A stretch of DNA of 55,357 bases from the NCBI GenBank assembly GCA_902596975.1, contig CACJWS010000008.1, positions 1-55,357 on the forward strand, written 5' to 3'. Both the position numbers and the translations under genes were made by a program. This document shows, piece by piece, positions 4,428 to 55,357 of this stretch (its first letter is position 1; each line of letters opens with the position of its first letter). The notes under the pieces were generated by a model. It searched no databases. It had not been told where the DNA came from and saw only the letters and a program-made list of their open reading frames with translations. This DNA comes from an uncultured Pelagibacteraceae bacterium (lineage in GTDB: Bacteria > Pseudomonadota > Alphaproteobacteria > Pelagibacterales > Pelagibacteraceae).

Positions 4428-6188
4428 ATGACTGTTTATTCCGCACCTGTGAAAGATATGATGTTCTTATTTGAACATCTAAAAGATAATAAAAATTATA
4501 ACGAAATTGAAAAATATAAAGAAGTCACATCTGATCTAGTAAAAGATATCTTAGAGGAAGCTGCAAAAATTAATGAAGAAATGCTTCTTCCTTTAGCTAA
4601 AGCTGGAGACGAAAATCCTTGTGTCTATGAAAATGGAGTAGTTAGAACCCCTCCAGGTTATAAAGAGGCATATTCAAAATTTATAGAAGATGGATGGGTA
4701 TCTTTAACTTGTGATCCAAAATATGGTGGCCAAGGAATGCCAAAAACTGTAAGTGCTTTTTTTGATGAAATGCTTTCATCATCAAGTTTATCTTTTAAAT
4801 TATATAGTGAATTAAGTATAGGTGCATACAATTGTATTTTGAGTCATGCAACTGAAGAAATCAAAAACACATATCTTCCTAAAATTGTTGAGGGTAAATG
4901 GAGTGGGACAATGTGTTTAACAGAGCCTCAATGTGGAACAGATTTAGGACTAATAAAAACAAAGGCAATTAAAAATGAAAATGGTACTTATAATATAAGT
5001 GGACAAAAAATCTTTATTACTTCTGGTGACCACGATTTAACTGAAAATATTATACACCTTGTTTTAGCAAGAACGCAGGATGCACCAAAAGGAACGAAGG
5101 GGATAAGTTTATTTTTAGTACCAAAATATGAAATTAATGATGATGGATCAATTGGTCCAAGAAACGGCGTCAATACTGTTTCAATTGAATCAAAAATGGG
5201 TATTAAAGGTTCACCCGCGTGTGTATTAAGTTTTGATGATGCCAAAGGCTATATGATCGGACCAGAGAACAAAGGCTTAAATTCCATGTTTACAATGATG
5301 AACTTAGAAAGAATTGTTGTCGGTATACAAGGATTAGGTCTATCTGAAACAGCTTATCAAACTGCTTTAAGTTATTCAAAAGAGAGAAAACAAGGCAAAT
5401 CAAATAATAATTCTAATGGAGAAACAGATTTAATTATTAAGCACGCAGATATTCGAAGAAGTTTATTAAATATGAAGTCTATAATTGAGGGAGAAAGATC
5501 CTTATCTTTTTGGATGGCTCAGCAGGTAGATGTAAGCTTAAGTCATAGTTCAGAGGAAGTAAAAAAAGATGCATCGGATATTGTAGGTCTTATGACCCCA
5601 GTAATTAAGTCATTTTTTACAGATATGGGTATGGAAATAACCAATGAAGCAATTCAGGTTTTTGGTGGCTATGGTTATACAAAAGACCAAGGGATAGAAC
5701 AATTATTTAGAGATAATAGAATTACACCTATTTACGAAGGAACTAATTCTGTGCAGGCAATTGACTTTGTATTTAGAAAAATTAGTCAGAAAAAAGTTTT
5801 TGAAAATTTTATGAAATATGTAGATACAGAAATTCAAAATTGTTCAAAAGTAGACAATTTAAATGAACATGTAAAAAAAATATCTGAATTAAAAAATATA
5901 TTGTCAGATTTCACGGACTGGATATCTCCTAATGGCAATACGCCAAAAGACGATATAAGCGCATCATGTAACGATTATTTAAGATTTTTTGGTTATTTTT
6001 GTCTTTCATTTATATGGCTAAAAACAATGAGAAAAAGCTATGAAAATTTGGAAAACAATAAAGAGTTTTATGAAGATAAATTAAATACAGGAAATTATTA
6101 TTTTGACAAAATTTTGCCTAGAGCTGAGAGCCATTATAAATCTGCTATTTCTGGTAGTAAATATACTATGAGCGCAAAATTTAACTGA
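4428..6188 (+). CDS. dmdC: Acyl-CoA dehydrogenase, probable 3-methylmercaptopropionyl-CoA dehydrogenase
   Basis: This is a 586-residue FAD acyl-CoA dehydrogenase of the long form with a C-terminal extension of about 110 residues, as in DmdC and related FadE-like enzymes. Visible features are CLTEPQCGTDLG (FAD/substrate region), IEGERSLSFWM, FGGYGYTKDQGIEQLFRDNR, and the catalytic base Glu437 in PIYEGTN. DmdC makes methylthioacryloyl-CoA from MMPA-CoA in DMSP demethylation. The DmdC assignment rests mainly on position: the next genes are an acyl-CoA ligase (stop and start touch) and dmdA. By sequence alone a fatty acyl-CoA dehydrogenase cannot be excluded. Confidence 0.85.
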   Translation: MTVYSAPVKDMMFLFEHLKDNKNYNEIEKYKEVTSDLVKDILEEAAKINEEMLLPLAKAGDENPCVYENGVVRTPPGYKEAYSKFIEDGWVSLTCDPKYGGQGMPKTVSAFFDEMLSSSSLSFKLYSELSIGAYNCILSHATEEIKNTYLPKIVEGKWSGTMCLTEPQCGTDLGLIKTKAIKNENGTYNISGQKIFITSGDHDLTENIIHLVLARTQDAPKGTKGISLFLVPKYEINDDGSIGPRNGVNTVSIESKMGIKGSPACVLSFDDAKGYMIGPENKGLNSMFTMMNLERIVVGIQGLGLSETAYQTALSYSKERKQGKSNNNSNGETDLIIKHADIRRSLLNMKSIIEGERSLSFWMAQQVDVSLSHSSEEVKKDASDIVGLMTPVIKSFFTDMGMEITNEAIQVFGGYGYTKDQGIEQLFRDNRITPIYEGTNSVQAIDFVFRKISQKKVFENFMKYVDTEIQNCSKVDNLNEHVKKISELKNILSDFTDWISPNGNTPKDDISASCNDYLRFFGYFCLSFIWLKTMRKSYENLENNKEFYEDKLNTGNYYFDKILPRAESHYKSAISGSKYTMSAKFN

Positions 6189-7881: not shown

Positions 7882-8991
7882 ATGAAAAACTTTTCTATTG
7901 CAAAATCAAGAAGACTTAGAGGTACGCCTTATACATCAAGAATTGAAAAACAAGGTGTTACAGCTTACACAATATACAATCATATGTTGCTTCCTGCTGC
8001 ATTTGGTTCTTTAGAAGACTCATATCATCATTTAAAAGAGCATGTTCAAGTTTGGGATGTGGCCGCTGAGAGACAAGTAGAGATTACTGGAAAAGATGCT
8101 GCAAAATTGGTTCAACTTATGACTTGTAGAGATCTTTCGAAATCAAAAGATGGAAGATGTTATTATTGTCCAATCATAGATGATAATGCTGGATTAATTA
8201 ATGATCCAGTTGTTCTAAGATTTAATGAGAATAAATGGTGGGTTTCTATTGCAGATACGGATGTAATCTTATTTGCAAAAGGATTGGCAATTGGAAATAA
8301 ATTTGATGTAAATATTATCGAACCTGAAGTTGACATTATGGCTGTGCAAGGGCCAAAATCTTTTAAATTAATGGAAAAAGTTTTTGGTGAAAAGATAACA
8401 AAATTAAAATTTTTTGGTTTTGATTATTTTGATTTTGCTGGAGCCAAACATTTAATTGCTCAATCAGGATGGTCTAAACAAGGTGGATATGAAATTTATG
8501 TAGAGAATAATGCTTCAGGTTTAAAATTATACGATCATCTATTTGAAATTGGAGATGAGTTTAATATTAGAGCAGGATGTCCTAATTTAATTGAACGTAT
8601 CGAAAGTGGATTACTTTCTCAAGGAAACGATATGGACAATGGAGACAACCCATACGAATGTGGCTTTGATAAATATATTAATATTGATAGTGATGTTGAA
8701 TTTTTAGGAAAAGAGAAATTAAAAAAAATAAAGTCTGAAGGAATTAAAAGAAAACTAATGGGTGTTAAAATTGATACTGATAAAATAAGTGTAACTGGTT
8801 CAATGAACTTAACAGATGAAAAAAATAATATAATCGGAGAATTAAGATCAGGTTGTTACAATCCAACTTTTAAACAGGTAATTGGTATAGCTATGATAAA
8901 AAAACCATATTTTGAAGCAAAGCAAACATTCAAAATTGATATAAATGGTAATAGTTTTAACGGAACAGTTTGCGATTTACCTTTCATTTAG
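7882..8991 (+). CDS. dmdA: Dimethylsulfoniopropionate demethylase
   Basis: DmdA transfers a methyl group from DMSP to tetrahydrofolate, giving 3-methylmercaptopropionate and 5-methyl-THF. This is the main marine route for reduced-sulfur assimilation from DMSP. The 369-residue protein has the GcvT (aminomethyltransferase) fold, with [18 protein letters not shown] near residue 53, the [15 protein letters not shown] segment at 194-208, and the [20 protein letters not shown] region. Length and sequence match the Pelagibacter-type DmdA rather than glycine-cleavage T-protein, and no gcvH or gcvP is nearby. Trp197 and Tyr206 are present in the segment I recall as lining the DMSP pocket. The dmdC-B-A context supports the call. 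Confidence 0.93.
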
Positions 8992-10715: not shown

Positions 10716-12487
10716 AATCTTATAATATTATAGATCATGAATACGATGTCGTTGTCCTTGGTGCTGGAGGTTCTGGCCTAAGAGCTGCGGTTGGCTTAAG
10801 TGAAGCTGGATTAAAAACTGCATGCATTTCTAAAGTCTTTCCAACCAGAAGTCATACATCAGCTGCCCAAGGTGGAATTTCAGCAGCCCTTGGAAACATG
10901 GGAGAAGACGATTGGCGTTGGCATATGTACGATACTGTAAAAGGAGCAGATTGGTTAGGCGATCAAGATAGTATTGAATATTTGTGTAAGGAAGCTCCAA
11001 AAGCAGTACTAGAATTAGAAAAGTATGGTGTTCCTTTTAGTAGAACAGAAGACGGAAAAATCTATCAAAGACCATTTGGAGGAATGACAAAAAATTATGG
11101 AAATGGAATTGTACAAAGAACTTGTGCTGCAGCAGACAGAACTGGTCATGCAATTCTTCATACATTGTATGGTCAAGCACTTAAACATAATACAGAATTT
11201 TTTATTGAATATTTTGCATTAGACTTAATTATGAAAGATGGACAATGCAAAGGTTTAATTGCTTGGAATTTAAATGATGGAACGATTCATCGTTTTAGAT
11301 CTCACATAACAATTATAGCCACAGGGGGATATGGGAAGGTGTATTACTCAGCAACATCTGCACATACTTGTACTGGTGATGGTAATGCAATGGTATTAAG
11401 AGCTGGATTACCTCTTCAAGATATGGAGTTTGTACAATTTCACCCAACAGGAATATATGGACACGGAACACTTATTTCTGAAGGTGTAAGAGGTGAAGGT
11501 GGATACTTGGTAAACTCTAAAGGTGAAAGATTTATGGAGAGATATGCTCCCAACGCTAAAGATCTTGCATCAAGAGATGTAGTTAGTAGATCAATGTCTA
11601 TTGAAATCAATGAGGGAAGAGGTGTTGGTAAAGATCAAGACCATGTTCATTTATATTTAAGTCATTTAGATAAAAAAGTTATTGAAGATAGATTGCCAGG
11701 CATTACTGAGGCAGCAAGATTATTTGCAAATGTAGATGTAACCAAAGAACCGATACCAGTTGTTCCAACAGTTCATTATAATATGGGTGGTATACCAACA
11801 AATTATAAAGCTGAAGTTTTAACAGTAAACGGATCTCAAAAAACAGTCCCAGGTTTGATGGCGATTGGTGAGGCCGCGTGCGTATCTGTGCATGGAGCAA
11901 ATAGATTAGGTTCAAATTCACTTATTGACTTGGTTGTTTTTGGAAGAGCAGCAGCAAAGAGAGCAGCGGAATTGGTAAAACCTGGAACGCCTCACGAAGA
12001 AGTTAGTGAAAGCGAAACTGAAAAATGTCTAAATAGATTTGATAAACTAAGGTATGCAGAGGGAGATAATGGAACTGCTGAACTTAGACTGGCGATGCAA
12101 AAAACAATGCAGTCTAAATGTGCTGTATTTAGAACTGAAAAGAATCTTAAAGAGGGTGTAGACGAGATCAGAAAAACATATGACGGCATGGAATCGATTT
12201 CTGTTAAAGATAAATCGTTGGTATTCAATACTGATTTAGTTGAGACTTTAGAATTTGATAATTTAATTAGACAAGCAATAACAACTGTAGATTCTGCATA
12301 TCACAGAAAAGAAAGCAGAGGAGCTCATGCTCGTGAAGATTATCCGAAAAGAAATGATGAAAAATTTATGAAACATACATTATCTTGGTGTGATGGAAAA
12401 AATACTAAAATTGAATACAGAGATGTACATACTTCAACATTAACAAATGAAGTCCAATATTTTCCTCCACAAGAAAGAGTGTATTAA
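10712..12487 (+). CDS. sdhA: Succinate dehydrogenase flavoprotein subunit
   Basis: SdhA oxidises succinate to fumarate on a covalently bound FAD, facing the cytoplasm. The 591-residue length is typical. Visible features are the Rossmann motif [16 protein letters not shown], the FAD-linking histidine in [15 protein letters not shown], the active-site stretches [22 protein letters not shown] and [16 protein letters not shown], and the C-terminal [16 protein letters not shown]. It overlaps sdhD by 4 bases and sdhB by 1, within an asd-sdhCDAB run. Confidence 0.98.
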
Positions 12488-17811: not shown

Positions 17812-20709
17812 ATGAGTTCTCCTAAAAATCTGGAATATAAAAAAACATCATTTCTAAATAAGGCCAATAGTGCATTTATTGAGGAAATGTATGTAAAATT
17901 TATAAATAAAGATCCATCTCTATCTGAAAGTTGGATTGAATATTTCTCAAGTGTAGATGAGGATATGAAGATATTAGTCGACGAGATAAATGGACCATCA
18001 TGGAAACCTTTTTCAAAGAAAATAAATATAGAAGATGTTGAGAAAACAGCTCAAGAAAATGAAAAAAATAAAGATAATTCTAGTAAGTTTAATTTTCAAG
18101 TAATTGCAAATTCAAATAAAAATTCAATAAGTGCTGTAGCCTTGATAAGAGCTTATCGCTTAAGGGGACATCTATTATCAAAATTAGATCCTTTAGAATT
18201 GATGAAGTCAGAATATTTAGACGAATTACATCCTGAGTACTATGGTTTTAAAAAAGAAGATTATGAGAAAGAAATTTTTCTAAACGGAATAATAAATAAA
18301 AAAAGTGCAAATATTAGAGAAATACTTAAGTTTTTAAAAAAAACTTATTGTGGTCCCATAGGTTATGAGTACATGCATATTTCAAATCCAACTGAGAGAA
18401 TGTGGTTTAGAGATAGAGTTGAAAAAGACGAGAATGCACTCAAGTTTACAAAAAATGGAAAGCAAGCAATTTTAAATAAATTAATACAAGCAGAGGGATT
18501 TGAAAAATTTTTAAACACAAAATATGTTGGTACTAAAAGATTTGGTTTAGATGGTGGAGAAAGTTTAATACCTGCTCTTGAGCAAATTATAAAAATCGGA
18601 GGACAATCCAAAATAAAAGAAGTTAAAATAGGAATGTCACATAGAGGAAGACTAAATGTCTTAGCAAACGTTTTACAAAAGTCTTATAAAAGAATTTTTA
18701 ATGAATTTGCTGGTGAAATGGATGGTTCAGAAGATGGTGCTGGAGATGTCAAATACCATTTAGGAGCCTCATCTGATAGAGAATTTGATGGAAATCCTGT
18801 ACACGTTAGTTTAACAGATAATCCTTCACATTTAGAGGCAGTTAATCCTGTTGTTCTTGGCCAAACTAGAGCTAAACAATTTTTTCACAAAGACAAAGAA
18901 AGAAATAAAGTTATACCAATATTAATTCACGGCGATGCTGCATTTGCAGGGCAAGGAATAGTAGCAGAGTGTTTTGCGATGTCCGGACTTCCTGGTCATA
19001 ACACTGGAGGGACAATCCATATTATTGTTAATAACCAAATTGGATTTACAACAAGTCCTAGATTTGCGCGATCTTCCCCTTATCCTTCTGACGTAGGTAA
19101 AATGGTTGATGCACCAATTATCCATGTTAATGGAGATGATCCTGAGGCAGTTGTTTACGCAACTAGAATAGCAACTGAGTTTAGATTAAAATTTAATAGA
19201 GATGTTGTAATTGATTTAATTTGTTACAGAAGATTTGGACATAATGAGGGAGATGAGCCATCCTTCACCCAACCACTTATGTACAAAAAAATTAGATCTC
19301 ATCCATCTACAATTAAAATTTATGGTGAAAAGCTGGTAAATGAAGGACTTTTTACGAAACAAGATTTAGATCAACAAATTATTGATTTTAAAAATTTATT
19401 AGATGATCAATTTAAAAATGCAAAAGATTATAAACCTAAAATTAGGTGGTTTGAGGGAACTTGGTCGAGATATAAACCCGAAAGAGGTAAAGATAAAAGA
19501 GGTGTAACTGGATCAGATTTGAAAATTTTAAATAATATTTCTGACAGAATACATGTTTTTCCAACTGATAAAAATATTCACAAAACCATAACAAAAATTA
19601 TGGAAAATAGAAAAAAAACTATTAATGAAGGCTCAGGAATTGATTGGGCAACAGCTGAGTCTTTAGCATTTGGTTCATTATTAGTTGAAGGTTATCCAGT
19701 AAGGTTAGTAGGTCAGGACTCAGGTAGAGGTACCTTTAGTCAAAGACATTCAGTTTTAAGAAATCAAATTGATAATTCAAGGTACATACCTTTAAACAAT
19801 ATATCTAGTAACCAAAAAAATTTTGAAATTGTAGATAGTTTTTTATCTGAACTTGCAGTTTTAGGATTTGAATATGGATACAGTTTAGTAGAACCGAATA
19901 CATTGACAATTTGGGAAGCTCAATTTGGAGATTTTGCAAATGGTGCACAAGTAATTATTGATCAATTTATATCATCTGGTGAAAGAAAATGGAAAAGAGC
20001 ATCTGGACTGGTTATGTTATTACCCCATGGTTATGAAGGACAAGGTCCAGAGCACTCCTCTGCGAGATTAGAGAGATTTTTACAATTATGTGCAAATGAT
20101 AATTTACAAGTTATGAATTGTACTACACCTGCAAATTATTTTCATGCTTTAAGAAGACAGATGCACCGTGATTTTAGAAAACCTTTAATTATAATGACAC
20201 CTAAGTCACTTTTAAGAAATAAATATTGTGTATCAAATTTAGAAGATTTTAGTAAAAAAAATTCTTTTCATAGAGTGCTATGGGATCATGCTAGAGATAC
20301 TAAGCAAAAAGGTTTTATTAAGTTAAAAGAAGATAAAAAAATTAGAAAAGTAATATTATGCTCTGGAAAAATTTATTTTGATCTTCTCGCGGCAAGAGAG
20401 AAACTAAATATCAATGATGTGATTTTGTATAGAATTGAACAACTATATCCTTTCCCTGCAAAAAGTTTGGTTAAAGAGCTAAAACCATTTGCAAAAAATT
20501 CAAAATTTTATTGGTGCCAAGAGGAGCCCAAAAATATGGGTGCTTGGTTTGCTGTTAGAGATTATATACAATGGACATTAGAGACTATTAAGGCTAAAAA
20601 CAATGCAATTTCTTACATTGGAAGAAGTCCAGATGCTACACCTGCTACAGGTTATGCAAGAAGACATAATTCTGAACAACAAGAAATTATAAATAAAGTA
20701 TTTGAATAA
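17812..20709 (+). CDS. sucA: 2-oxoglutarate dehydrogenase E1 component
   Basis: E1 decarboxylates 2-oxoglutarate on thiamine diphosphate and passes the succinyl group to SucB. The 965-residue length is full. Visible parts are the N-terminal E2-binding region with SFIEEMYVKF-like sequence (here SAFIEEMYVKF), GGESLIPALEQII, MSHRGRLNVLANVL, the ThDP motif GDAAFAGQG continuing to NNQIGFTTSPR, and the C-terminal QEEPKNMGAW and PATGYARRHNSEQQ. A perfect TATAAT at 17798-17803 sits just before the ATG, but no convincing -35 accompanies it. It abuts sucB. Confidence 0.98.
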   Translation: MSSPKNLEYKKTSFLNKANSAFIEEMYVKFINKDPSLSESWIEYFSSVDEDMKILVDEINGPSWKPFSKKINIEDVEKTAQENEKNKDNSSKFNFQVIANSNKNSISAVALIRAYRLRGHLLSKLDPLELMKSEYLDELHPEYYGFKKEDYEKEIFLNGIINKKSANIREILKFLKKTYCGPIGYEYMHISNPTERMWFRDRVEKDENALKFTKNGKQAILNKLIQAEGFEKFLNTKYVGTKRFGLDGGESLIPALEQIIKIGGQSKIKEVKIGMSHRGRLNVLANVLQKSYKRIFNEFAGEMDGSEDGAGDVKYHLGASSDREFDGNPVHVSLTDNPSHLEAVNPVVLGQTRAKQFFHKDKERNKVIPILIHGDAAFAGQGIVAECFAMSGLPGHNTGGTIHIIVNNQIGFTTSPRFARSSPYPSDVGKMVDAPIIHVNGDDPEAVVYATRIATEFRLKFNRDVVIDLICYRRFGHNEGDEPSFTQPLMYKKIRSHPSTIKIYGEKLVNEGLFTKQDLDQQIIDFKNLLDDQFKNAKDYKPKIRWFEGTWSRYKPERGKDKRGVTGSDLKILNNISDRIHVFPTDKNIHKTITKIMENRKKTINEGSGIDWATAESLAFGSLLVEGYPVRLVGQDSGRGTFSQRHSVLRNQIDNSRYIPLNNISSNQKNFEIVDSFLSELAVLGFEYGYSLVEPNTLTIWEAQFGDFANGAQVIIDQFISSGERKWKRASGLVMLLPHGYEGQGPEHSSARLERFLQLCANDNLQVMNCTTPANYFHALRRQMHRDFRKPLIIMTPKSLLRNKYCVSNLEDFSKKNSFHRVLWDHARDTKQKGFIKLKEDKKIRKVILCSGKIYFDLLAAREKLNINDVILYRIEQLYPFPAKSLVKELKPFAKNSKFYWCQEEPKNMGAWFAVRDYIQWTLETIKAKNNAISYIGRSPDATPATGYARRHNSEQQEIINKVFE

Positions 20710-21985: not shown

Positions 21986-23383
21986 ATGTCAGAAAAATTT
22001 GATGTTACAGTAATTGGTGGTGGCCCTGGGGGATATGTTTGTGCAATTAGATTGTCTCAACTTGGACTTAAAACAGCATGCATAGAGTCTAGAGGATCTC
22101 TAGGGGGGACGTGTTTAAATATTGGATGTATCCCGTCAAAAAGTTTACTTAATTTATCTGAAAAATTTCACAGTGCTAAAAATTTTGAAAAAATTGGAAT
22201 CGAGACTGGAGAAATAAAACTCAATTTAGATAAAATGATGAAAAATAAAGACAAAGCTGTAACAGTTTTGACTAAAGGAGTTGAATTTTTATTCAAAAAA
22301 AACAAAGTCACTTATTTTAAAGGCAAAGGTTCGTTTGAGAACGAGAATTCAATAAAAATTGAAGGCTCTGAAGGCATTAAAATAATTCAAACTGATAAAA
22401 CAATAATAAGTACAGGATCAGAGCCAGTTTCATTGCCTGGAGTAGATTTTGATGAAGAGAGAATTCTTTCTTCAACTGGAGCCCTATCTATTCCCAAACT
22501 CCCCAATAAAATGATTGTTGTTGGTGGAGGATATATAGGATTGGAAATGGGATCAGTTTGGTCAAGACTTGGCACTGAAGTTACAGTCGTTGAATTTTTA
22601 GATCATATCACGCCTGGAATGGATCGAGATATTTCAAATGAATTTATGAAAATATTAAAGAAACAAGGTATAAAATTCAACCTTAATACTAAAGTTGATA
22701 AAATAACTAAAAACTCTAACGGTGTGACGGTTGAGACTTCACAAAATGATGGCCAAAAAGTTAAACACGATGTTGATGTTGTTTTAATTTCTGTAGGAAG
22801 AAGACCTTATACTAAAAACTTAAATTTAGATAAAGTTGGTGTAAAGTTAGATGAAAAAGGAAGAGTTAAAGTAAATAAAAATTTTGAAACGAATGTTAAA
22901 AATATTTATGCAATAGGTGATGTTATTGATGGCCCAATGTTAGCCCATAAAGCTGAAGAGGAAGGAATTGCAGTTGCAGAATTAATAGCAGGCCAGTCAG
23001 GTCATGTTAATTATGATATTATTCCTGGAGTTGTTTATACATCTCCCGAGGTTGCTTATGTTGGTAAAAGCGAAGAGCAATTAAAAAAAGAAAACATAGG
23101 GTACAAAATTGGTAAATTTCCTTTTATGGCAAATTCAAGAGCCAAAGCAATTGATGAGCCAGAGGGTTTTGTAAAAATTTTGGCAGACCAATCAACTGAT
23201 AAAGTGCTTGGTGTACATATTATTGGTCCTCATGCAGGAGAAATGATAGCAGAAATGTCCGTTGCAATGGAGTTTGGGGCCAGTTCAGAAGATATCGCAA
23301 GAACATGCCACGCACACCCAACATTTTCAGAAGCTATAAAAGAAGCGGCATTATCAGTAGATAAAAGACAGATACACTCTTAA
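21986..23383 (+). CDS. lpdA: Dihydrolipoamide dehydrogenase (E3)
   Basis: This flavoprotein reoxidises dihydrolipoamide with NAD+ in 2-oxoacid dehydrogenase complexes. The 465-residue protein shows the FAD motif VIGGGPGGYVCAIRL, the redox disulfide Cys43/Cys48 in GGTCLNIGCIPSK, the NAD motif VVGGGYIGLEMGS, AIGDVIDGPMLAHKAEEEG, and the C-terminal active-site CHAHPTFSEAIKEA. It lies directly after sucAB, so it probably serves that complex, though an lpd may be shared with pyruvate dehydrogenase. Confidence 0.97.
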   Translation: MSEKFDVTVIGGGPGGYVCAIRLSQLGLKTACIESRGSLGGTCLNIGCIPSKSLLNLSEKFHSAKNFEKIGIETGEIKLNLDKMMKNKDKAVTVLTKGVEFLFKKNKVTYFKGKGSFENENSIKIEGSEGIKIIQTDKTIISTGSEPVSLPGVDFDEERILSSTGALSIPKLPNKMIVVGGGYIGLEMGSVWSRLGTEVTVVEFLDHITPGMDRDISNEFMKILKKQGIKFNLNTKVDKITKNSNGVTVETSQNDGQKVKHDVDVVLISVGRRPYTKNLNLDKVGVKLDEKGRVKVNKNFETNVKNIYAIGDVIDGPMLAHKAEEEGIAVAELIAGQSGHVNYDIIPGVVYTSPEVAYVGKSEEQLKKENIGYKIGKFPFMANSRAKAIDEPEGFVKILADQSTDKVLGVHIIGPHAGEMIAEMSVAMEFGASSEDIARTCHAHPTFSEAIKEAALSVDKRQIHS

Positions 23384-23402
23384 TATATATCATAATTAAT
23401 TT

Positions 23403-25358
23403 ATGAAATATCCTGTTCTATTGCCTAATATATTTGATCATCCATTTACATATCTAAGTAATATTAAATTAAAACCAGGAGATTATGTAAAAGTACCTTT
23501 TGGTAAGAAAAATATTATTGGTGTAATTTGGGATATTTTTGAAGAAAAGAATAAGAAAGAATTTAAATTAAAATCTATAACTGAAAAAATTGAAATTGAA
23601 CCACTAAGTAAAAATACAATCAATTTTTTAAAGTGGTTTTCTAACTACAATCTTGTACCCCTAGGAATGTGTTTAAAACTACATTTGATTAATGACGAAA
23701 ATTTAAAAATAAAAAATGACAAAGATCTATTAAAATACGATATATCAAATGAAAAAAAAATTTATCAACTTTCTGAAGAACAAAACAACGCTTATAAAGA
23801 ATTATCAAAATATGATAGCGGCTTTAGAGTTCATTTACTTCAAGGAACAACAGGTTCAGGCAAAACAATAGTTTATTTTAAAGCTATTGAAAAAATTCTA
23901 AATATTGGATCACAGGCTCTAATTTTATTGCCCGAAATAGGGCTAACAAATGAATTTGAAAAAAAATTTAAATCTTATTTTGGATTCGAAGCTGCAGTTT
24001 GGCATTCAAAAATAAGTCCAAAAAAAAGAAAAATTATATGGAATGGTTTATCCTCAGGCAGAATAAAAGTAGCTATTGGAGCAAGATCATCTTTATTTCT
24101 ACCATTCAAAAAATTGGGTTTAATTACCGTAGATGAAGAACACGATCAATCTTACAAACAAGATGAAGGAATTATCTATAATGCTAGAGATATGGCAATA
24201 TCAAGAGCTAAACATGAAAATATTCCAATAAATTTAGTAACTGCAGTTCCATCAATCGAAACATATGAAAATATTAAAATTAAAAAATATAATTACTCAA
24301 GATTGCTTAATCGATATAAAGGTGCGAATTTGCCCAAACACCATGTTATAGATCTTTATCAAAATCAACTAGCGACCAAAAGTTCTATATCTCTCAAAAC
24401 TATTGAAAAAGTAAAAGAACATTTAAATAAAAAAGATCAAATTCTCTTCTTCATAAATAGAAGAGGTTTTGCGCCCTACGTTTTATGTAAAAAATGTTTA
24501 AATGTTTTTACATGCCCTAGGTGTTCTATAAATTTAGTATTTCACAAAAATAAAAAAATTCTTTTGTGTCATTACTGTGGATATAAATCAAAATTAAATA
24601 GAGATTGTAAAAAAGGAGATGTTTGTGAGTTTGTATTTAGTGGACCTGGAGTAGAAAAAATTGCGGAAGAGGTTAAAAACTTATTCCCTAATAAAAAAAC
24701 AATAATTTTTTCCAGCGACACAATGAATAAAGCATCTGGTAAAGATAAATTGGATAAAATTATATCTGGTGAAATAGATATTCTTGTAGGCACTCAATTA
24801 ATATCAAAAGGATTTCACTTTCCAAAATTGAATTGTATTGTTGTATTAGATATTGATTTAACTTCTCAAGGACACGATCTTAGGAGCACTGAAAAAAATT
24901 TACAACTTTACCACCAGTTATCAGGAAGAGCGGGCAGAACTGGCAAGCCAGCAAATATTTATTTCCAAACATATAATTTAAAACCAGAAGTTATAAATCA
25001 AATTACAAATGAAGATCCTTTTAAATTTTTAGAAAATGAATTAAATTTAAGAAAAAAGAATAATTTACCTCCCTACGAAAGATTTATCGCTTTAATTTTA
25101 TCTTCATCAAATGAAAAAAAATTAGATATAGATGCCGCAAAACTTAAAAATATTTTATCAAAGTCTATAGATGCAAAAATTTTAGGACCCGTAAACGCCC
25201 CAATATATAGAATTAATAGAAAATTCAGAAATAGACTATTAATAAGAGCAAAAAAAACATCTAGTATTCAGAAAAAATTGAAAGATGTATTGAAAGAATT
25301 TCAACTCTCCAAAGGAATGAAACTTTCAGTTGATGTTGACCCTATCAGCTTCAATTAG
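23403..25358 (+). CDS. priA: Primosomal protein N' (replication restart helicase)
   Basis: PriA reloads the replisome at collapsed forks. The 651-residue protein is shorter than the ~730 of E. coli. It has an N-terminal DNA-binding domain, Walker A GTTGSGKT (148-155), Walker B DEEH (244-247), a cysteine-rich zinc region (about 361-408) and C-terminal helicase motifs (GTQLISKGFHFP, HQLSGRAGRTGK). In the zinc region three CxxC pairs are clear, but the last is altered: after Cys402 the expected Cys405 is Gly and a Cys occurs at 408 instead. It sits between lpdA and the atp operon, the common alphaproteobacterial position. The call is secure. Confidence 0.95.
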   Translation: MKYPVLLPNIFDHPFTYLSNIKLKPGDYVKVPFGKKNIIGVIWDIFEEKNKKEFKLKSITEKIEIEPLSKNTINFLKWFSNYNLVPLGMCLKLHLINDENLKIKNDKDLLKYDISNEKKIYQLSEEQNNAYKELSKYDSGFRVHLLQGTTGSGKTIVYFKAIEKILNIGSQALILLPEIGLTNEFEKKFKSYFGFEAAVWHSKISPKKRKIIWNGLSSGRIKVAIGARSSLFLPFKKLGLITVDEEHDQSYKQDEGIIYNARDMAISRAKHENIPINLVTAVPSIETYENIKIKKYNYSRLLNRYKGANLPKHHVIDLYQNQLATKSSISLKTIEKVKEHLNKKDQILFFINRRGFAPYVLCKKCLNVFTCPRCSINLVFHKNKKILLCHYCGYKSKLNRDCKKGDVCEFVFSGPGVEKIAEEVKNLFPNKKTIIFSSDTMNKASGKDKLDKIISGEIDILVGTQLISKGFHFPKLNCIVVLDIDLTSQGHDLRSTEKNLQLYHQLSGRAGRTGKPANIYFQTYNLKPEVINQITNEDPFKFLENELNLRKKNNLPPYERFIALILSSSNEKKLDIDAAKLKNILSKSIDAKILGPVNAPIYRINRKFRNRLLIRAKKTSSIQKKLKDVLKEFQLSKGMKLSVDVDPISFN

Positions 25359-54020: not shown

Positions 54021-55271
54021 ATGGGTAAAATTAAAAAAACAGATCATTTCTATCTTATTGATGGGTCCGGATACATATTTAGAGCCTATTATGCATTGCC
54101 ACCATTAACACGAAAAAGTGACGGTTTGCCAGTAGGAGCGGTAAGTGGATTTTGTAACATGCTGTTTAAATTATTAGAGGACTCTAAATCTAGCGAAAAT
54201 TTAGAAAAACCAACTCATTTTGCAGTAATCTTTGACTCTGCAAGAAAGAATTTTCGAAACGAAATATATTCAGATTATAAAGGAAATAGGTCTGATGCTC
54301 CCGATGATCTTATTCCACAATTCGATTATATTAGAAAGTCAGTATTAGCATTCAATTTACCCTCAATAGAAATGTTAAATTACGAGGCTGATGATTTGAT
54401 TGCCACCTATGTAGAGCAAATATTAGACGAGGGTGCAAAGGTAACAATTGTATCATCCGACAAAGATTTAATGCAACTTTTCAAAAAAAAGGTTCGTATA
54501 TACGATCCAATGAAGAATAAATTTATATCTAATGACGATGTAATCAATAAATTTGGGGTTGGTCCGGATAAAGTAATTGATGTTCAATCACTAGCAGGTG
54601 ATAGTACAGACAATGTACCTGGCGTTCCCGGTATTGGTGTAAAAACAGCAGCAGAATTAATTAAGGAATATGGAAATTTAGAAAACCTTCTCAAAAACGC
54701 AAATAAAATAAAACAGAATAAAAGAAGAGAAACACTTTTAGAAAATAAAGATAAGGCTCTGGTAAGTAAAAAACTGGTTACATTAAAAAATGATGTTCCG
54801 GTGAAAGACAAATTAACTGATTTTGTTCTAAAAAAAGTAGACGTAGACAAGTTATATAATTTTTTGAGAGAAATGGAATTTAATAGATTATTGAGTTCGG
54901 CAATTTCGACGTATGGTCAATCCAAATTTAGTGATGAAATAGAAGTCAAAAAAGAAACATCTAAAATATCAAAAGATAAATATGTTTTGATAAAAAATTT
55001 ATCTGAAATAAAAGATTGGATGCAAGAAGCCGAAGAAGCTGGTGAATTTTCTATTGATACTGAAACAGATTCTCTTGACCCACACCAGGCAAATTTAGTT
55101 GGTATCTCAATTTCTAGCAAAATAGGTAAAGCTTGTTACATTCCAACAGGTCATATTGATAAAAATAATCTAAATGAAAAAGATGTTTTGAGAATTTTAA
55201 AACCATATTTAGAGGATAAAAGTTTAAAAAAAATTGGGCAAAATATTAAATTCGATTACATAAATATTTAG
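54021..55271 (+). CDS. polA: DNA polymerase I, 5' part; frame broken at the contig end
   Basis: Pol I fills gaps and removes RNA primers. Residues 1-~290 are the 5'-3' exonuclease/flap domain (YLIDGSGYIFRAYYALPPLTR, YEADDLIATYVEQI, SSDKDLMQLF, GDSTDNVPGVPGIGVKTAAEL in part). From ~325 the 3'-5' exonuclease begins, with Exo I SIDTETDSLDP and Exo II GQNIKFDYI. The frame then reads NI and stops (TAG 55269-55271). A normal Pol I continues for about 500 more residues. The stop lies in sequence that belongs on the other strand (see 55262-55357), so this is a truncated record of an intact gene, not a short Pol I. Preceded by a strong promoter. Confidence 0.93.
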   Translation: MGKIKKTDHFYLIDGSGYIFRAYYALPPLTRKSDGLPVGAVSGFCNMLFKLLEDSKSSENLEKPTHFAVIFDSARKNFRNEIYSDYKGNRSDAPDDLIPQFDYIRKSVLAFNLPSIEMLNYEADDLIATYVEQILDEGAKVTIVSSDKDLMQLFKKKVRIYDPMKNKFISNDDVINKFGVGPDKVIDVQSLAGDSTDNVPGVPGIGVKTAAELIKEYGNLENLLKNANKIKQNKRRETLLENKDKALVSKKLVTLKNDVPVKDKLTDFVLKKVDVDKLYNFLREMEFNRLLSSAISTYGQSKFSDEIEVKKETSKISKDKYVLIKNLSEIKDWMQEAEEAGEFSIDTETDSLDPHQANLVGISISSKIGKACYIPTGHIDKNNLNEKDVLRILKPYLEDKSLKKIGQNIKFDYINI

Positions 55272-55357
55272 TAATTTTTCTGATTTAAGCGATTTCAAAA
55301 ATATTTTATATAAACGGTAAGTTATATCGGCATCTTCTGCCGCATAATCTTTTGCAA
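55262..55357 (-). other. polA: Inverted fragment of polA (Exo III region) at the window end
   Basis: Read on the - strand from 55355, this stretch gives AKDYAAEDADITYRLY, then KIFLKSLKSEKLLNIY. That is the Exo III region of DNA polymerase I (E. coli equivalent: GRYAAEDADVT), expected some 60 residues after the FDYI where the forward gene breaks. The junction falls on the self-complementary AAATATTT (55262-55269). The best reading is an inverted chimera at a contig end from genome amplification or assembly; a real local inversion is much less likely. Confidence 0.9.

Follow-up and report, generated by a model that had tools for sequence, protein, structure and literature searches.

Inverted chimeras of whole-genome amplification with phi29-type polymerases are the closest described counterparts of the sequence join analysed here; they form when a 3' end, once displaced, primes synthesis on a single strand close by. 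In the portion of the study by Lasken and Stockwell (2007; PMC1855051) drawn on here, which concerns one E. coli cell, 406 of 475 multiple displacement amplification (MDA) chimeras were inverted with an intervening deletion, 337 of these 406 joined segments less than 10 kb apart, the complementary words at the junctions measured 2-21 nt (76.8% of junctions having at least 2 bases), and hairpin self-priming was excluded as a major route. For phi29 chimeras in reanalysed human data, the relevant part of PMC4595205 gives a distance peak of 250-300 nt and overlaps that are mostly 5-8 nt.

The window, i.e. the whole 55,357-nucleotide stretch of DNA analysed, is a complete contig (C8) of an assembly of 32 contigs and 1,246,502 bases from an uncultured Pelagibacteraceae bacterium, and ends within polA, the gene for DNA polymerase I (Pol I). 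At this end the polA sequence changes strand, a flip that is real in the record and that very probably reflects an inverted chimera of phi29-type whole-genome amplification and not an alteration of the chromosome. Like the inverted MDA chimeras, as far as they are described in the part of PMC1855051 used here, the polA join has an inverted second segment that lies nearby (within 10 kb), sequence is deleted between the two segments and a short complementary word marks the junction; among close relatives, for which the search is informative, this junction is private to one library. Its breakpoint spacing (289-294 bases, according to how the overlap is counted) and its overlap of five bases likewise match the phi29 profile in that part of PMC4595205. 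Unlike the chimeras of PMC1855051, which are reads, the polA join survives in a finished contig and its polarity is unreadable; unlike the human data of PMC4595205, it represents one event, in an A+T-rich bacterial genome.

The locus was compared with relatives fetched with their polA genes (n = 80 loci from Pelagibacteraceae records, the majority named AG-...), of which 56, at a cut-off of at least 95% DNA identity, form the close set. The forward part of the window's polA comprises the first 414 codons plus one base and covers two 5'-3' exonuclease domains as well as the first half of the 3'-5' exonuclease domain; its 414 residues are collinear with, and nearly identical to, those of other Pelagibacteraceae Pol I enzymes, such as that of locus L022 (921 aa). 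As the initial annotation had it, the gene runs in frame to GQNIKFDYI and then hits a stop: the ORF closes with ...GQNIKFDYINI-stop, in which NI and the TAG stop come after the native FDYI. Pfam searches of the 416-aa ORF matched PF02739, PF01367 and PF01612 (positions 1-89 of 173) and gave no match to PF00476, the family A polymerase domain, whereas the L022 enzyme has all domains, including the polymerase. Unlike L022 Pol I, the window ORF thus lacks the polymerase domain as well as the remainder of the 3'-5' exonuclease. A search of the assembly for PF00476, whose positive control was detected in 10 of 14 known genomes, gave no match. Against the 56 close loci, the forward part shows 17-51 base differences and 0-9 amino-acid differences; the low number of amino-acid changes relative to base changes suggests that selection acted on the gene up to the very recent past.

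We use the conventional motif names Exo II, for the region around GQNIKFDYI, and Exo III. The 94 bases that follow the join, and that run to the contig end, equal L022 positions 5532 down to 5439 and encode native polA residues about 481-512. Read on the minus strand, the last ~100 bases translate to AKDYAAEDADITYRLYKIFLKSLKSEKLLNIY, which is identical at 31 of 32 positions to L022 polA residues 481-512, in agreement with the initial assignment of the last ~95 bases to the Exo III region on the opposite strand. Alignment of the last ~100 bases with the polA genes of relatives, a check that the initial annotation had itself proposed, matched 55255-55357 to the opposite strand with 97-99% identity over 103 bases among the best 25 BLAST matches; with a best E value of 1.5e-47, a chance match is excluded. 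Between the two segments, 195 bases (L022 5244-5438, residues about 415-480) are without representation, and the earlier estimates of about 200 bases lost, and of a resumption about 60 residues later, were therefore about right.

The junction was mapped by ungapped comparison of the contig end with the 56 close loci. Forward identity extends to 55263 in 48 loci, is shorter in eight and goes further in none, and on the reverse strand identity sets in at 55259 in 36 loci and later in 20; the two matches thus share the word CATAA. L022 carries this word at 5239-5243 and the complementary TTATG at 5533-5537. Among 200,000 random inverted pairs drawn from L022 at distances of 50-3000 bases, 1.06% had an overlap of at least five bases, a rate that modestly supports priming. 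The eight-base palindrome AAATATTT, at which the switch point had originally been placed, does not coincide with these limits and was rejected in favour of CATAA: six of its eight bases fall past the join, in the inverted part only. Eight-base palindromes number 390 in the window (7 per kb), with AAATATTT alone present 27 times. In the search of 60 relatives with the last 558 bases, the long forward matches extend up to 11 bases beyond 55263 (to query position 475), by chance gapped matching. The features are collected in Table 1.

Table 1. Features at the polA end of the window (coordinates in nucleotides of the window; a point denotes no strand).
Feature	Coordinates	Strand	Evidence
polA, correct collinear 5' part	54021..55263	+	ORF; Pfam; collinearity with 56 close loci
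Spurious ORF created by the join	54021..55271	+	416 aa vs native 921 aa in L022
CATAA, common to both segments; junction and likely priming word	55259..55263	.	Ungapped comparison, 56 close loci
AAATATTT palindrome, incidental, mostly within the inverted part	55262..55269	.	Junction mapping; 27 window copies
Inverted polA scrap, Exo III region	55264..55357	-	Opposite-strand BLAST; minus-strand translation

The relatives carry an intact polA. Its length is 921 aa in 55 of the 56 close loci, the 56th being open and running off its contig; across all 80 loci, 76 stop at 920-929 aa, three (L031, L070 and L080) are open off the sequence and L060 was left out. The search with the last 558 bases gave some match in 40 of 61 genomes (the 60 relatives plus that of the window) and no long match across the junction in the relatives; where both parts were matched, they lay on opposite strands, as expected of an intact gene. 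Short weak matches nominally crossing the junction in other genomes (at most 74 bases, E values of 6.6e-6 or worse) lie at other places and are taken as chance. In a pattern search, the exact 26-base junction was present in one of 399 same-genus genomes, the window's own, a sample that was drawn evenly from a larger group and is informative for close relatives only, since a diverged inversion could escape it. There were 24 further places within 2-3 mismatches, of which 23 are native Exo III-side sequence and one (G101:C1) is unrelated. The same inversion was thus found in none of the close relatives.

The contig end coincides with a large gap in the assembly. In locus L173 of relative G027, polA reads on past this point; C8 matches it in the forward direction up to L173 777, a few bases beyond the junction by chance, and another contig of the assembly (C2, reversed) resumes at 7959. 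The arrangement is the same in L175 of G013, with the C8 end at 10908 and the C2 resumption at 18092, and these two close relatives place ~7.2 kb, missing from the assembly, between the C8 end and C2. Apart from the inverted 103-base match (L173 963-1065), the assembly contains no substantial piece of this gap. In L022 the first 4 kb of the missing stretch holds the remainder of polA and two ORFs which, judged by their sequences, resemble a response regulator with its histidine kinase. Whole-assembly searches with the polA end and with the relatives' downstream sequence returned only short weak matches outside C8, and comparison of contig ends with the end stretches of the contigs revealed no inverted match for the C8 polA end; a fold-back onto sequence elsewhere in the assembly was accordingly rejected.

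Taken with the published profile, the spacing, the five-base overlap, the adjoining gap, the intact polA of close relatives and the private junction make an inverted amplification chimera at the contig end, one of the origins put forward in the initial annotation, the best supported. In a branched amplification product, a displaced 3' end would have annealed through a five-base complement, most likely CATAA, to a nearby single-stranded copy and then been extended. As the assembly lacks the adjoining 7.2 kb, such chimeric molecules were probably the sole extension open to the assembler and would thus have become the last bases of the contig. The product is double-stranded and readable either way, so that the record is silent on which segment came first; for the same reason hairpin self-priming is conceivable for this single case.

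A real inversion of ~290 bases in the polA of this cell, between CATAA and TTATG and cutting Pol I short inside the 3'-5' exonuclease domain, would produce an identical visible junction, and the contig stops before the reciprocal junction at which the two origins could be told apart. We nevertheless regard such an inversion as very improbable, given the intact genes in the close loci, the absence of the exact junction from the 398 other genomes searched, the few amino-acid changes in the 5' part of polA, the weakness of a 5-base inverted repeat as a recombination site and the position of the contig end at a large assembly gap. It is equally improbable that the cell carried a Pol I reduced to a 5' nuclease and half a proofreading domain within a population in which polA is otherwise intact.

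A chimera formed outside whole-genome amplification, at another laboratory step such as ligation or library PCR, is expected to give the same junction, whichever the stage at which it arose; however, the spacing and overlap lie on the phi29 peaks given in the part of PMC4595205 cited above, and both the relatives and the lengths of the contig gaps point to an amplified single cell, such that we consider this origin very improbable. That the assembler alone joined two strands, which the initial annotation had also entertained, agrees with the location of the join at a contig end, where assemblers err. In de Bruijn assemblers, however, an overlap in the assembly graph requires more than five or eight shared bases. 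Neither the five shared bases nor the eight of the palindrome approach assembly word lengths, and the assembly has no second copy of the stretch from which the inverted piece derives; the junction was therefore most likely present in the sequenced molecules, and a join made without a chimeric molecule is scarcely credible.

We have high confidence that the polA join is an amplification artefact, and one that is ordinary of its kind, and the other contig ends indicate how isolated it is. Against G027, one of 31 checkable contig ends has a terminal flip, that end being the polA end of C8. An end was checkable if it had a G027 match of at least 85% identity and at least 90 bases that reached to within 10 bases of the end; the 56 readable ends comprise these 31, 20 without such a match and five that were matched but short, while eight ends of contigs C29-C32, consisting of N letters only, were left out. 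Four of the five short-stopping ends fall at the end of a reference contig, and the fifth (C10_R) diverges, with 76% identity over 504 bases, and does not flip. Among the relatives, none of the 16 contig ends within the fetched polA loci flips. A general habit of flipping in this assembly was rejected on these counts, and the polA flip is a lone event in it, not a pattern; this lack of a general excess of flips speaks, if anything, against an amplification origin.

Up to the junction the window is collinear with G027, except for one large indel at 23386-23398. At 23384-23402 the window is without about 690 bases carried by G011, G018 and G027, whereas the flanks gave no match in G013. The flanking genes (named from sequence) are a dihydrolipoamide-dehydrogenase-like gene at 21986-23383 and a PriA-like helicase gene at 23403-25358, and in G027 the ~690-base insert holds a 214-aa ORF on the opposite strand with the look of a methyltransferase. 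As both flanking ORFs are intact, this difference is likely a natural gene gain or loss.

The nearest public records are mostly AG-... isolates, which we take to be single amplified genomes. The smallest contig in the assembly has 2130 bases. Ten gaps of less than 8 kb separate neighbouring contigs on G027, three of which measure 200-201 bases, the length expected from two 100-base trims; the other seven measure 120, 547, 1307, 1991, 2864, 5733 and 6995 bases, the last being the polA gap as counted from the inverted scrap. In the part of PMC5519541 relied on here, a single-cell pipeline removes 100 bases at either end of a contig and retains only contigs of more than 2000 bases. The AG-... relatives, the 200-base gaps and the 2130-base minimum all fit such a pipeline, and the genome may well have been whole-genome amplified and handled in this manner. 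If a 100-base trim was applied, the inverted tail would have been ~200 bases long before trimming and would have outlasted it. In its account of single-cell genome sources, PMC11247762 gives, in the part consulted, a figure for benchmark cultures of 1.5 misassemblies per 100 kb, a rate at which one such error is unremarkable.

These observations suggest a cheap check, in which amplified genomes are compared at their contig ends with same-species relatives to detect terminal strand flips; a fixed 100-base trim need not remove such flips. Taken at face value, the present record gives a false Pol I of 416 residues that lacks the polymerase, as the initial annotation rightly warned, and hides the fact that the remainder of polA falls in an assembly gap. 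Such a truncated Pol I is probably not real. Were the inversion true, the cell would lack the polymerase of Pol I, a result that specialists would find surprising.
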